NCBI RefSeq assembly: GCF_024055595.1
Contig: NZ_JAMXOF010000002.1
Location: 806,001 to 870,000, forward strand
Source of the DNA: Mucilaginibacter aurantiaciroseus
GTDB taxonomy: Bacteria > Bacteroidota > Bacteroidia > Sphingobacteriales > Sphingobacteriaceae
Direction: 5' to 3'
DNA length: 64,000 nt
Position 1 is the stretch's first letter, and every line of letters begins with the position of its first letter. The notes below the pieces were generated by a model. The model saw only the letters and a program-made list of their open reading frames with translations. It ran no database searches and was not told the DNA's origin. The position numbers and the translations under genes were made by a program. Shown piece after piece: positions 9,765-57,655 of the stretch.

Positions 9765-9960
9765 ATAAATTATTCGTCTTCGTTATTAATCTCTCGTTTT
9801 CAATTTATAGTGGTGTGCTTCGGTTTTAATTATTACGCATATTCTTTTAAATTGGTTGCGTGTTTTTTAAAAAATTAATAAACAACTTACTGGAAGTGTT
9901 TAATATTTAATTATTTAGAAAATTTGGTTGCAGGATATTATCTGCGTGTTAGGTTTTATA

Positions 9961-9968
9961 TACCTTTG
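9961..9968 (+). promoter_or_regulatory. -7 element TACCTTTG four nt before the amidase start
   Basis: TACCTTTG fits the Bacteroidota -7 consensus and ends only 4 nt before ATG 9973. If it works as usual, transcription starts at or next to the start codon, predicting a leaderless mRNA. Confidence 0.55.
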
Positions 9969-9972
9969 CGGC

Positions 9973-10809
9973 ATGTTATCCAGGCACTTAAAAGTTACCC
10001 TATACAGTTCTGTTTTTTTTATGTTGATGCTGGCTGCATTGCCGGCAGTATCACAAACCAAACGCAAGGCCAGGGCCGAAGCTGCAAAAGAGGGTGCCCC
10101 CGAACATTCATTCAAGTTTAAAACCATCGTTATAGACCCCGGCCATGGCGGTAAAGACCCCGGCGCGCACGGCGCTTACTCCAACGAGAAAACCATAGCG
10201 CTAAGCATCGGCAAAAAATTGAAAGTGGCTATCAATAATGCCATCAGCGGTGTAAACGTGATCATGACGCGCAGCACCGATAAATTTATTGAACTGCACA
10301 GGCGCGCCAACATCGCTAATGAGAATAACGCCAACCTTTTTATTTCGATTCACTGCAACTCATCGCCCGAGCGGGTAAGCCCTAACCGCGGCGTGCTGCT
10401 GTTAGTTTATGGTTTCCACCGCAAAGGCGAGCAATTAGAAGCCCTGCGCGAGAACGCTTCCATATTTATAGAGAAGGATTATAAGAAAAAATACAACGGC
10501 TACGGCGATGATGCCGCGCTTAACGCCATTGTATTGGCTGCGTTTCAGCAACGTTACCGCAAGCAAAGCGTGCAGTTTGGTAACCTGCTAAACCACCAAC
10601 TTAAAGTGAATAACGGCCGCAAAAGCCTCGGTGTACGCGAGCAGGGTGTGCTTGTACTACAGCAAAGCAGCATGCCCGGCATGCTGCTGGAAACTGGTTT
10701 CATCAACAACCCAACCGACGAAAAATACCTGAATTCCGAAAAAGGGCAAAATGATATTGTACAATCTATTTTGGTTGCTATAAAGAAATATAAAGAGAGT
10801 TTTGAGTAA
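9973..10809 (+). CDS. N-acetylmuramoyl-L-alanine amidase (Amidase_3, AmiC-like)
   Basis: Zinc enzyme cleaving the MurNAc-L-Ala bond of peptidoglycan in the periplasm during cell separation. The 278-residue protein has a signal peptide (MLSRHLKVTLYSSVFF... to PAVSQ, residues 1-28). The catalytic domain shows zinc ligands in VIDPGHGGKDPGAHG, the Glu of SNEKTIALS, His in LFISIHCNS, and the catalytic Glu in MLLETGFINNPTDE. ATG 9973 is preferred: 10021 would remove the basic n-region, and 9928 lies upstream of the promoter. It is not adjacent to other division genes. Confidence 0.93.
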   Translation: MLSRHLKVTLYSSVFFMLMLAALPAVSQTKRKARAEAAKEGAPEHSFKFKTIVIDPGHGGKDPGAHGAYSNEKTIALSIGKKLKVAINNAISGVNVIMTRSTDKFIELHRRANIANENNANLFISIHCNSSPERVSPNRGVLLLVYGFHRKGEQLEALRENASIFIEKDYKKKYNGYGDDAALNAIVLAAFQQRYRKQSVQFGNLLNHQLKVNNGRKSLGVREQGVLVLQQSSMPGMLLETGFINNPTDEKYLNSEKGQNDIVQSILVAIKKYKESFE

Positions 10810-17513: not shown

Positions 17514-17583
17514 GTCCACGCTTATAATTATTTAAGCGTGGACGATTAAATAATTGTTGCTTCAAGCGGATGACGCTTGAAGC
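17514..17583. repeat. Two tandem perfect hairpins between GH3 and GNAT genes
   Basis: Hairpin 1 (17514-17543) has 11-bp arms GTCCACGCTTA/TAAGCGTGGAC. Hairpin 2 (17559-17583) has 10-bp arms GCTTCAAGCG/CGCTTGAAGC with a 5-nt loop. Neither is followed by a T run, so they are poor intrinsic terminators. They may be repeat elements or transcript-end structures. Confidence 0.6.
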
Positions 17584-17599
17584 GGCGGGTGTCATTACA

Positions 17600-17607
17600 T
17601 ATATTTG
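17600..17607 (+). promoter_or_regulatory. -7 element TATATTTG upstream of the GNAT gene
   Basis: Exact TAnnTTTG match, 5 nt before ATG 17613 and 47 nt before ATG 17655. Depending on the true start the mRNA is leaderless or has a leader of about 42 nt. Confidence 0.5.
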
Positions 17608-17654
17608 CTATCATGCCAAAACGTTTCGACTGGACACCATCTGCTTATTCAACT

Positions 17655-18116
17655 ATGGAAAACATTATCACCCGCCGGGCTACCGTGGCTGATATGGACA
17701 CGCTGCTTCAATTTGAGCAGGGCGTGATCAGCTCCGAGCGGCCGTTCGACCCAACTTTAAAGGAGGGGCATATTAACTATTATGATCTTAACGAGCTTAT
17801 CATCGCCCCACATATCCAACTTGTAGTTGCCGAACTTAACGGCGAGATTATCGGCAGCGGCTACGCCCGGATCGAAACTTCTAAGATCTACCTGCAACAT
17901 CCGCAGCATGCCTACCTGGGTTTTATGTATGTGTTGCCCCAGCACCGTGGCAAGGGCATAAATAAATTGGTTATTAATGCGCTAAAGGAATGGTCGGTGC
18001 AGCAAGGGATAACCGAATTTAGATTGGAGGTGTATTTCGGGAACGTGGCTGCTATTAAGGCTTACGAAAAAGTAGGTTTTAACAGCCACATGATAGAGAT
18101 GCGCATGGGGCTTTAG
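17655..18116 (+). CDS. GNAT family N-acetyltransferase
   Basis: Acetyl-CoA-dependent acetyltransferase of 153 residues. The acetyl-CoA binding motif A is LGFMYVLPQHRGKGINKLV, followed by EFRLEVYFGNVAAIKAYEKV and GF. ATG 17655 starts directly at the domain (MENIITRRATVADMD); ATG 17613 would add 14 residues and would be leaderless relative to the -7 element at 17600. It follows two hairpins after the GH3 gene. Substrate unknown. Confidence 0.85.
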   Translation: MENIITRRATVADMDTLLQFEQGVISSERPFDPTLKEGHINYYDLNELIIAPHIQLVVAELNGEIIGSGYARIETSKIYLQHPQHAYLGFMYVLPQHRGKGINKLVINALKEWSVQQGITEFRLEVYFGNVAAIKAYEKVGFNSHMIEMRMGL

Positions 18117-30031: not shown

Positions 30032-30541
30032 TTAAACCAGCTTCTCCAACTTATACATTTCTACAGGCTGCCTCAAAATGCCGTTCCGCTCGGTAATATT
30101 CAGCGGGATAATTTCGCCGGTTTTGGCGTAGCCGCGGCGTTCGTACCATTCCAGCAGCTCGGTGCGGGTGGTAATAACCGTCATGGTGATGATGTGGTAA
30201 TTGATGCTTCGTGCATAATCTTCAGCAGTTTCTAAAAGTTTGCGGCCAAGCCCGCCGGCTTGCAGGGTAGGCGATACGGTAAGCATGCCAAGGTAAAGGT
30301 TGTCGCTACGTTTTTGCAGGTAAACACAGCCTGTTATTTGGTTGTCCTCATTCGTGTTTTTTAGGATGATGGCTTTCGGGTCGTCCATCTGCTCAATTAA
30401 GCCGTCTGCGTCTATGCGCTGCCCATCTATCAGGTTAGCCTCGGTGGTCCAGCCTTTTTTGGAAGTTTCGCCACGGTAGGCCGAATTTATCAACACAACA
30501 AGTTCGGGAACATCAATAAGGGTAGCAGGAGTAATAGCCAT
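30032..30541 (-). CDS. GNAT family N-acetyltransferase
   Basis: The 169-residue protein starts MAITPATLIDVPELVVLINS and has the acetyl-CoA motif LGMLTVSPTLQAGGLGRKLL and TRTELLEWYERRGYAKTGE. It is convergent with the histidine kinase. The start codon follows TAGATTTG by 4 nt (30546-30553). This group is common in Bacteroidota; substrate unknown. Confidence 0.88.
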   Translation of the reverse strand: MAITPATLIDVPELVVLINSAYRGETSKKGWTTEANLIDGQRIDADGLIEQMDDPKAIILKNTNEDNQITGCVYLQKRSDNLYLGMLTVSPTLQAGGLGRKLLETAEDYARSINYHIITMTVITTRTELLEWYERRGYAKTGEIIPLNITERNGILRQPVEMYKLEKLV

Positions 30542-30545
30542 GCGG

Positions 30546-30553
30546 CAAATCTA
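30546..30553 (-). promoter_or_regulatory. -7 element TAGATTTG four nt before the GNAT start
   Basis: Minus-strand TAGATTTG fits TAnnTTTG and ends 4 nt before ATG 30541, predicting a leaderless or near-leaderless mRNA. Confidence 0.5.
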
Positions 30554-41493: not shown

Positions 41494-42360
41494 CTATGGG
41501 GTTTTGCGGAAATCCTCGGGGGTAAGTCCGTTATGTTTTTTAAAAAATTTGGTAAAGTAGGAGTTATCGGCAAAGTTAAGTTTGGCGGCTATTTCGGTAA
41601 TGTTGAGGTCGAGGTTTATAAGCAATCTTTTGGCCTCCAGTATCACGCGGTTGCGAATCACTTCGCCTGCCGAGATCCCCAGCATATCGTTACACAACGC
41701 ATTTAAATGGTTAGGGGTGATGTACAACAAGGCGGCATAATCTTTTGGTAAACGCAGGGTGGCGAAGTTTTTATCCGTTAACTTCCTGAAGCTTTGCAGC
41801 AAGGTGTAGTTATAAGTGGGTGCAGTACTTTGGCTGCTATGCGCGCTTTGCCTTGCCACTAAAATAAACAATTGCAGCATCAGCGTGCGGATCATATCCA
41901 TCCCCATGCGGCTAATTTCGCTGCTCTCTTGTATCAATTGCTCAAACAGGGCTACTGTCTGCTGGTGTACTTCGGGTTTCAGGTTTATTACTTCATCGTC
42001 TACATTGCCGGTAAAAAATGGCAGGCTTTCCAAATAATCGGGCCGTAATAAAAATGACTGGAAAAACTCTGCCGAAAAATTGATAATGTAGCCATCAACC
42101 GGGCCCTCAAAATCCCAGCGGTGTACCTGGCCGGGCACCATAAAGTAAATTTGATAAGGCTTAACCGGGAAGCCGGTGAAATCAATAAAATGGCTGCCGG
42201 CGCCTTCGGTAAATAATACCACGTGGTAAAAGGTATGCTTATGCGGCAGGCTCAGGTTCTGATGTTTTTGCAGATATGGCGCAAACCGGCTCATAAGCAG
42301 GTCGTTGTGCTGATGATCAGCTAACGAACATATATCATAAACAGGGAACACCTTTTTCAT
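41494..42360 (-). CDS. AraC-family regulator with cupin sensor domain
   Basis: The 288-residue protein has an N-terminal cupin-type arabinose-binding-like domain (LPHKHTFYHVVLFTEGAG, VPGQVHRWDFEG) and a C-terminal AraC HTH (LRLPKDYAALLYITPNHLNA, then FADNSYFTKFFKKHNGLTPE). ATG 42360 follows TATCTTTG by 4 nt (42365-42372), so the mRNA may be leaderless. The DUF983 gene is next in the operon. Ligand unknown. Confidence 0.9.
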   Translation of the reverse strand: MKKVFPVYDICSLADHQHNDLLMSRFAPYLQKHQNLSLPHKHTFYHVVLFTEGAGSHFIDFTGFPVKPYQIYFMVPGQVHRWDFEGPVDGYIINFSAEFFQSFLLRPDYLESLPFFTGNVDDEVINLKPEVHQQTVALFEQLIQESSEISRMGMDMIRTLMLQLFILVARQSAHSSQSTAPTYNYTLLQSFRKLTDKNFATLRLPKDYAALLYITPNHLNALCNDMLGISAGEVIRNRVILEAKRLLINLDLNITEIAAKLNFADNSYFTKFFKKHNGLTPEDFRKTP

Positions 42361-42364
42361 GCTA

Positions 42365-42372
42365 CAAAGATA
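42365..42372 (-). promoter_or_regulatory. -7 element TATCTTTG four nt before the AraC start
   Basis: Minus-strand TATCTTTG fits TAnnTTTG and ends 4 nt before ATG 42360, a leaderless-type arrangement. Confidence 0.5.
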
Positions 42373-42445
42373 CTTAACTATTACCTTGGGCGATGGTGTT
42401 GGATGTGGTTGTTGTGGTGTTTTTTACTGATTGTGATAACAATCA

Positions 42446-56308: not shown

Positions 56309-56316
56309 TATATTTG
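56309..56316 (+). promoter_or_regulatory. -7 element TATATTTG four nt before argH
   Basis: Exact TAnnTTTG match ending 4 nt before ATG 56321, whose start is fixed by the conserved ArgH N-terminus. The clearest leaderless candidate in the window. Confidence 0.6.
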
Positions 56317-56320
56317 CAAC

Positions 56321-57655
56321 ATGAGCAAGCTTTGGCAAAAAACCACTAACGTTAATAAGCTGGTAGAAAATTTTACCGTTGGCCGCGACCGCGAGCTGGA
56401 CAGGCAAATGGCCGCTTTTGATGTTCTTGGCTCGCTTGCCCATACCAAAATGCTCGAATCTATAGGTTTAATGGATGCCGCCGACCTAACGCTGGTACAG
56501 CAGGAACTGAAAGCCATTTACACCGAAATAGGGAATAATAATTTCGAGATCGAGCCTGATGTGGAGGACGTACATTCGCAAGTAGAAATGCTGCTTACCC
56601 GCCGCATTGGCGAGGCCGGCAAAAAGATCCACAGCGGGCGCTCCCGTAACGACCAGGTTCTGGTGGATCTAAAACTATTCTTTCGCCACCAGCTACAAAC
56701 GGTAGTTACTGAAACTGATACGCTTTTCCGCCAGTTAATTCAACTGAGCGAACAACATAAAGATGTGCTTTTGCCGGGCTATACGCATCTGCAGGTGGCT
56801 ATGCCATCATCTTTCGGGTTGTGGTTTGGTGCTTACGCCGAGGGTTTAGTTGATGACCTGGAAATGGTTTTAGCCGCCTGGAAGATCACCAATAAAAATC
56901 CTTTGGGTTCGGCCGCGGGCTATGGGTCTTCGTTCCCTTTGAACAGGACGATGACCACCAACCTGCTTGGTTTCGAAAGCCTGAACCATAACGTAGTTTA
57001 CGCCCAAATGGGCCGTGGCAAAACCGAGCGTGTTATTGCGCAGGCATTATCATCCATAGCGGCAACCTTAGCCAAAATGGCGATGGATCAATGTTTATAC
57101 CTGAGCCAAAACTTCGCGTTTGTAAGCTATCCCGAAAACCTGACCACCGGCAGCAGCATTATGCCACACAAAAAAAACCCGGACGTTTGGGAGATCATGC
57201 GGGGTAAATGTAACCGCCTGCAAGCCCTGCCAAATGATGTAGCGCTGATGACCACTAATCTGCCATCGGGTTACCACCGGGAGCTGCAGTTACTGAAAGA
57301 ATTGCTGTTCCCGGCGTTTACAGACCTGATAGACTGCCTGCAAATGGCAACCTTTATGCTGCAAAATATCAGCGTAAACAAAAATATACTCGACGATCCA
57401 AAATACACCTACCTGTTTAGTGTGGAGGAAGTAAACAAATCGGTACTGAATGGCACACCGTTTCGCGATGCCTATAAACAAATAGGGCTGGATATCGAGG
57501 CCGGAAACTTTAACCCCGAAAAAACTGTTAACCATACCCACGAAGGCAGTATAGGTAACCTGCAAAACGAAGAGATTACCAAGGCCATGGATAAAATGGT
57601 CAGCAGTTTCGGCTTTAAAAAGGTTGAGAAAGCAATAAGCTGGTTGGTGAAATAA
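56321..57655 (+). CDS. argH: Argininosuccinate lyase
   Basis: Cleaves argininosuccinate to arginine and fumarate. The 444-residue protein has the superfamily signature GSSIMPHKKNPD (near 280-291), the serine loop; HSGRSRNDQVLVDLKLF (near 108-124); and PGYTHLQVAMPSSFG. Start MSKLWQKTT is typical. YwbE follows 5 nt after the stop. Its promoter is at 56309-56316 with no leader. Location cytosolic. Secure. Confidence 0.96.
   Translation: MSKLWQKTTNVNKLVENFTVGRDRELDRQMAAFDVLGSLAHTKMLESIGLMDAADLTLVQQELKAIYTEIGNNNFEIEPDVEDVHSQVEMLLTRRIGEAGKKIHSGRSRNDQVLVDLKLFFRHQLQTVVTETDTLFRQLIQLSEQHKDVLLPGYTHLQVAMPSSFGLWFGAYAEGLVDDLEMVLAAWKITNKNPLGSAAGYGSSFPLNRTMTTNLLGFESLNHNVVYAQMGRGKTERVIAQALSSIAATLAKMAMDQCLYLSQNFAFVSYPENLTTGSSIMPHKKNPDVWEIMRGKCNRLQALPNDVALMTTNLPSGYHRELQLLKELLFPAFTDLIDCLQMATFMLQNISVNKNILDDPKYTYLFSVEEVNKSVLNGTPFRDAYKQIGLDIEAGNFNPEKTVNHTHEGSIGNLQNEEITKAMDKMVSSFGFKKVEKAISWLVK

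Follow-up and report, generated by a model that had tools for sequence, protein, structure and literature searches.

The window, a stretch of 64,000 nucleotides covering positions 806001-870000 of contig C2 in the 3.93 Mb genome of Mucilaginibacter aurantiaciroseus (G000), carries five genes whose ATG is closely preceded by a candidate -7 promoter box of the form TAnnTTTG: argH, an amidase gene, two GNAT acetyltransferase genes and a gene for an AraC-family regulator (Table 1). The preliminary description had placed the box 4 nt before the ATG in four of these and 5 nt before it in the second GNAT gene, and on direct reading all coordinates and spacings proved exact. All five sites match TAnnTTTG, and 4/5 match TAHHTTTG, the form of the motif in Flavobacterium johnsoniae. 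The box of the first GNAT gene, TAGATTTG, is atypical in having G at its third position, where F. johnsoniae promoters almost never have it according to the portion of that report cited here (PMC6847099). Scans of the window for Rfam families (at gathering score) and for tRNA or tmRNA genes found none.

Table 1. Start-proximal boxes and their genes in the window, together with the argH loci of other genomes that carry an interposed gene
Feature	Coordinates	Strand	Remarks
argH -7 box, TATATTTG	56309..56316	+	then CAAC-ATG, ATG 56321; spacing 4 nt
argH, argininosuccinate lyase	56321..57655	+	PF00206 Lyase_1; predicted leaderless
Amidase -7 box, TACCTTTG	9961..9968	+	then CGGC-ATG, ATG 9973; spacing 4 nt
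N-acetylmuramoyl-L-alanine amidase gene	9973..10809	+	PF01520 Amidase_3
First GNAT -7 box, TAGATTTG	30546..30553	-	then CCGC-ATG, ATG 30541; spacing 4 nt
First GNAT acetyltransferase gene	30032..30541	-	PF13673 + PF00583
AraC -7 box, TATCTTTG	42365..42372	-	then TAGC-ATG, ATG 42360; spacing 4 nt
AraC-family regulator gene	41494..42360	-	PF12833 + PF02311
Second GNAT -7 box, TATATTTG	17600..17607	+	then CTATC-ATG, ATG 17613; spacing 5 nt
Second GNAT acetyltransferase gene	17613..18116	+	PF00583
Interposed gene in L022, L024, L025, L027, L033, L044, L054, L058 and L061	directly upstream of argH (9597-9947 in L025)		

Distances this short are meaningful only if the start codons are correctly placed, and one explanation of the sites is that the true starts lie elsewhere, behind ordinary leaders, with the box-to-ATG distance arising as an annotation artefact. 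For argH, whose start had been described as fixed by homology, that description is borne out: the protein aligns from residue 1 in 65/68 loci of the genus set, the window ArgH and its counterpart in Mucilaginibacter terrigena share 96% identity, and the five codons between the upstream in-frame stop and the ATG hold no ATG, GTG or TTG. A search for upstream in-frame ATG, GTG or TTG codons likewise found none for the AraC gene or the first GNAT gene, and among the best 30 of 54 AraC matches all 30 align from residue 1, with ATG there in 29. The start is less firmly set in the two remaining genes, which both have an upstream in-frame TTG (at 9928 for the amidase, at 17577 for the second GNAT gene), whose ATGs were both bypassed by a simple gene caller, and of which the amidase has many homologues that align only from residue 27-46 on (best 30 of 87 matches). 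In another genome, a box lies 6 nt before the start of a protein beginning MCGIVGYIG, which by eye looks like GlmS; the Cys that follows Met1 in GlmS is catalytic. Taking these cases together with the reappearance of the same short distances in other genomes (below), we regard misplaced starts as a very improbable account of the sites.

TAnnTTTG is also short enough for the five sites to be coincidences picked from the background, and over the window the box does occur at chance frequency (82 matches vs 76.6 +/- 8.4 expected). We therefore turn to its distribution relative to start codons in the rest of the genome, using 60 other 20-kb stretches drawn from C1 and C2, two of the nine contigs, and amounting to about 30% of the genome. 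These stretches and the window gave 931 called genes (2 with less than 100 nt upstream); the counts use the 872 that lie outside the window and have at least 100 nt of upstream sequence. Starts were set by a simple codon-usage gene caller blind to the box; because this caller passed over the ATGs of the amidase and second GNAT genes and so recovered only 3/5 window cases at their described starts, the totals below may be underestimates.

Among these 872 genes, TAnnTTTG occurs 7, 6, 7, 2 and 6 times at 4, 5, 6, 7 and 8 nt before the start, compared with a far-upstream mean of 1.23 per position; a further 2 boxes lie at 0-3 nt, 7 at 9-14 nt and 57 at 15-28 nt. The 28 boxes at 4-8 nt contrast with a mean of 3.9 and a maximum of 9 in 200 dinucleotide shuffles of the last 40 nt, and with an expectation of 2.1 derived from 5,441 in-frame internal ATGs. 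Related motifs showed no such behaviour: at 4-8 nt, 0, 2 and 2 of the 872 genes have GAnnTTTG, AAnnTTTG and ATnnTTTG, respectively, which is no enrichment; no peak appears there in the same genes for TTnnATTG, TAnnTTGT, the reverse complement or the reversed box, and CAnnTTTG is not enriched near starts in this genome. The shuffles, the internal ATGs and the control motifs thereby refute chance for the class, and, given also the conservation and replication described below, it retains almost no probability as a general account, although single genes, the second GNAT gene above all, could be coincidental. The genome-wide count proposed in the preliminary description, enrichment of the box at start-proximal distance, thus came out positive on about 30% of the genome. 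A fixed spacing of exactly 4 nt did not survive: an early sample of 350 genes, window included, had pointed to it with 7 boxes at 4 nt and none at 3, 5 or 6 nt, and the fixed distance was dropped for a range of 4-8 nt once more genes were counted.

A cruder count over the whole genome, which includes ATGs that are not starts, gave 319 matches to TAnnTTTG-N4-6-ATG vs 216 to TAnnTTTG-N10-12-ATG, with reversed-pattern controls of 269 and 239, respectively. The excess at N4-6 is thus about 100 by the N10-12 yardstick and about 50 by the reversed-pattern control.

The same arrangement recurs in other genomes of the phylum. Pooling samples of ten of them with those of G000 (1,646 genes), we found 8 boxes at 0-3 nt, 64 at 4-8 nt (26 at exactly 4 nt), 10 at 9-14 nt and 87 at 15-28 nt, with a sharp lower edge at 4 nt, as predicted if transcription starts 4-5 nt after the box. 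Around 68 argH loci, in a count that leaves out argH itself and gives each set of orthologues a weight of one, the highest values are again at 4 nt (4.6) and 5 nt (2.2), and all remaining positions below 15 nt stay at or below 1.0. The gap at 9-14 nt is less clean in these neighbourhoods, as the unweighted counts for 974 genes are 4 at 0-3 nt, 25 at 4-8 nt, 21 at 9-14 nt and 66 at 15-28 nt. Of the pooled 4-nt cases, 4/26 begin with GTG, which would be an unusual start for a leaderless gene. In two called genes of L020, at L020:6843 and L020:11964 (minus strand), a GTG start likewise follows the box at 4 nt, and one of the two resembles the phosphoglycerate mutase GpmI by eye.

Across 148 phylum genomes, matches at N4-6 outnumber those at N10-12 in 119, by a rough measure in which ATGs that are not starts are also counted. 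The ratio is 1.33 in the window's own family (6 genomes) and reaches 3.37 in family f22 (8 genomes of another class), while several families show little or no excess, among them f14 (1.01, 13 genomes) and f21 (1.08, 18 genomes); in some genomes, such as G108 and G182, the reversed-pattern control is higher than the N4-6 count. The start-proximal box class is thus widespread in the phylum and, given the ratios near 1 in some families, not universal. Family f22, comprising G086, G118, G144, G158, G162, G170, G192 and G199, has 772 N4-6 vs 229 N10-12 matches, and 414 called genes from five of its genomes have 5 boxes at 0-3 nt, 19 at 4-8 nt, none at 9-14 nt and 13 at 15-30 nt (5 vs 7 in G118 alone). 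The FMO protein of Chlorobi (PF02327) had no match in 12 genomes, 8 of them from f22, a result of little weight because the controls of that search gave no match either.

We also followed individual members of the class across orthologous loci. For argH, 67 of 80 loci were counted, leaving out L062, which has only 29 nt upstream, and L088-L093 and L095-L100, which lie outside the genus set; 61 of the 67 are titled Mucilaginibacter, many being metagenome bins, and six (L054, L056, L063, L066, L080 and L084) are titled by phylum or family only. In 51/67 of these Mucilaginibacter and close-kin loci, xAnnTTTG is followed by 3-5 nt and the ATG, with exactly 4 nt in 47, and M. terrigena argH likewise has its box 4 nt before the ATG. 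In right-anchored columns of 47 loci, the mean frequency of the top base is 0.87 over -12 to -1 vs 0.35 over -60 to -31, indicating that box and spacing were kept as the remainder drifted. The first base of the box is C, not T, in 32 of the 51 (22 CATATTTG, 9 CATCTTTG and 1 CACTTTTG among loci L021-L087 and L094), with spacing unchanged or nearly so.

For three of the other genes we examined the best 30 of 54 (AraC), 87 (amidase) and 45 (first GNAT) matches, own locus included. TAnnTTTG lies at 4-7 nt in all 30 AraC loci of these best 30 of 54. Among the best 30 of 87 amidase homologues, the box is at 4 nt in 10 and at 27 nt in 1; 17 have no box within 60 nt, and 2 have no usable ATG. Of the best 30 of 45 first-GNAT homologues, 10 have it at 4-7 nt, 13 at 15-25 nt and 1 at 36 nt; 6 have none within 60 nt, and in no homologue does it lie at 8-14 nt. 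Separately, the AraC loci L189-L218 (best 30 of 54) share an upstream block within 85 nt of the start, with CAGTAAA in 26/30, GTAAA in 30/30 and two or more copies of TACCA, CACCA or TGCCA in 29/30; in the window, this block lies at about 42400-42435 on the minus strand, before the promoter, and is perhaps an autoregulatory site.

Such conservation could in principle reflect translation rather than transcription, with TTTG near the ATG acting as a translation-initiation signal, and the nearly invariant argH block TTTGCANY-ATG, with its fixed spacing, speaks for such a signal. The AraC and GNAT families speak against it: the AraC box drifts between 4 and 7 nt among the best 30 of 54 matches, and the GNAT box, in the best 30 of 45, sits either at 4-7 nt or at 15-25 nt, skipping 8-14 nt. 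The TA of the box also matters, as the GA-, AA- and AT-led variants are unenriched, and the sites share their upstream anatomy with promoters of leadered genes. In the zone 5-7 nt before the box, A/T content peaks at 84-88% at start-proximal sites (n=32, window included) and at 79-87% at leadered ones (n=91), compared with only 46-57% before 392 boxes in coding sequence of the same genome. If the box occupies -12 to -5, the peak is centred near -18 relative to +1; a weaker A/T zone at -28 reaches 66-78% at start-proximal and 74-77% at leadered sites vs 51-62% at coding boxes. A role of the motif in translation initiation, in place of a promoter box, is on this evidence very improbable.

Neither the 32 start-proximal nor the 91 leadered sites of this genome are enriched for TTTG or TTG at -33. 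This missing signal is not decisive, since in the cited portion of the F. johnsoniae report the promoters show an A/T-rich zone at about -18 and a weaker one at about -28, with a -33 motif that is much less evident (PMC6847099).

Initiation typically occurs with a pyrimidine at -1 and a purine at +1. A pyrimidine precedes the ATG in 10/10 of the 4-nt cases of this genome (7 of them outside the window) and in 51/51 argH loci with the box (C in 43, T in 8). In the pooled genomes the bias is modest, at 21/26 vs 63% expected (p = 0.04).

Collectively, these results make it highly probable that the sites are sigma-A promoters of leaderless or near-leaderless mRNAs, with 4-8 nt between the box and the start codon that follows it. 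The leaderless-promoter reading offered in the preliminary description thus holds up, with support from enrichment, conservation among orthologues and counts over the phylum (not in every family), once its 4-nt distance is widened to this range; the phenomenon was already known in Bacteroidota, and the class is not a new kind of promoter. RNA polymerase carrying the housekeeping sigma factor would use TAnnTTTG and start 4-5 nt after the box, with the mRNA beginning at the A of the ATG or up to about four nt before it and a predicted leader of 0-4 nt. We strongly infer that transcription starts at or near the start codon, whereas for the exact +1 we infer the position from published flavobacterial data, and how the predicted leaderless mRNAs would be translated is similarly by analogy. 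In F. johnsoniae, 4 or 5 nt separate the box from the predicted +1, according to the cited part of the report (PMC6847099). Genes with a 4-nt spacing need the shorter of these values, because 4 nt puts +1 at the A of the ATG and 5 nt puts it inside the ATG; for argH, box position and a 4-nt spacing give a predicted +1 at 56321, the A of the ATG. Leaderless mRNAs are generally read directly from their 5'-terminal AUG, and here too the ribosome would presumably recognise that AUG directly, with no leader. Any of these genes may also be transcribed into a leadered mRNA from a further promoter upstream.

The box is missing in 16/67 argH loci. On a quick argH tree of 72 rows, with box labels set by pattern, 10 changes of the label are required, and well supported branches make at least 9 of these unavoidable; from these changes, the leaderless argH start seems to have been lost several times. 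In 9 of the 16 boxless loci, argH is separated from the M20 peptidase gene by a gene with a common C-terminal sequence; its copy in L025, for which this was tested, belongs to PF05635 (23S_rRNA_IVP, 23S rRNA-intervening sequence protein). The interposed gene is flanked by inverted ATCGTAAATC-type repeats in 9/9 loci, with direct units within 70 nt of the argH ATG in 9/9 and inverted units about 420-590 nt upstream, and the right end abuts or nearly abuts the ATG; L032 has the repeats without the gene. The arrangement resembles a small mobile element, about 0.45-0.6 kb long, that may have replaced the leaderless promoter in several lineages. M. aquariorum is among the species with this element. 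One literature search for a PF05635 element bounded by inverted repeats returned no matching report.

Judging by the sparse zone at 9-14 nt in the pooled genes and in the GNAT family, leaders of about 5-10 nt seem to be disfavoured. As a tentative and on balance doubtful extension, leader length might be two-valued, at either 0-4 nt or about 11-24 nt, with lengths between selected against and orthologues jumping from one to the other; leaderless placement would be commoner in some lineages (such as f22), and at argH the small element, with its 23S-rRNA-IVP gene between inverted end repeats, would supply an A-rich leader, independently in several lineages, as a natural switch from leaderless to leadered expression. 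The sparse zone is a testable statement about how much leader the Bacteroidota ribosome needs. The argH and AraC regulator genes provide concrete conserved leaderless candidates in a phylum where Shine-Dalgarno pairing is rare, as stated in the cited part of PMC10783764, and a rule based on sequence only, a box 4-8 nt before the start codon, can flag such genes and aid the setting of start codons in Bacteroidota.

Compared with known systems, these promoters resemble the Bacteroidota sigma-A (sigma-ABfr) type, as far as its cited descriptions go, in their TAnnTTTG/TAHHTTTG box, A/T zones at -18 and, more weakly, -28, and lack of a clear -33 signal. Unlike usual sigma-A (sigma-ABfr) promoters, they have the box so near the start codon that the predicted leader is 0-4 nt; off-consensus for that sigma factor are the G in one window box and the C in most argH boxes of the genus. 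In F. johnsoniae, leaders longer than 10 nt make up 87% of those with a probable promoter in the cited text (PMC6847099). A literature search for leaderless mRNA in Mucilaginibacter returned gut-microbiota work only. In the cited parts of the respective reports, Flavobacterium psychrophilum has its box at -12 to -5, and 5.5% of its mRNAs from 890 CDSs whose starts were mapped are leaderless (PMC9723704), and about 3.7% of Bacteroides thetaiotaomicron 5' UTRs are shorter than 10 nt (PMC7366714). The 28/872 genes (3.2%, background not subtracted) with a box at 4-8 nt here are of the same order as both figures, with the caveat that the bases differ. Because leaderless mRNAs thus already make up a few per cent in published data for Flavobacterium and Bacteroides, the window genes represent further cases of a known phenomenon. 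As described in the cited material, the F. psychrophilum leaderless and B. thetaiotaomicron short-leader mRNAs are likewise a minority class with a similar promoter. Those classes were mapped by transcript ends, unlike the present one, which is drawn from sequence.

More distantly, leaderless genes of Actinobacteria and Deinococcus-Thermus can be recognised by a -10-type element located some 10 nt upstream of their start codons, and the in-silico survey that describes them, which searched for TANNNT-like signals, flagged only 1/37 Bacteroidetes/Chlorobi genomes, with 2.4% of its genes, in the part cited here (PMC3160421). Like those TA-led genes as described there, the present ones have a promoter element that would mark leaderless genes, although the Bacteroidota box differs. 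Beyond what the F. psychrophilum and B. thetaiotaomicron classes offer, our analysis shows individual members conserved across a genus and a scarcity of boxes at 9-14 nt.
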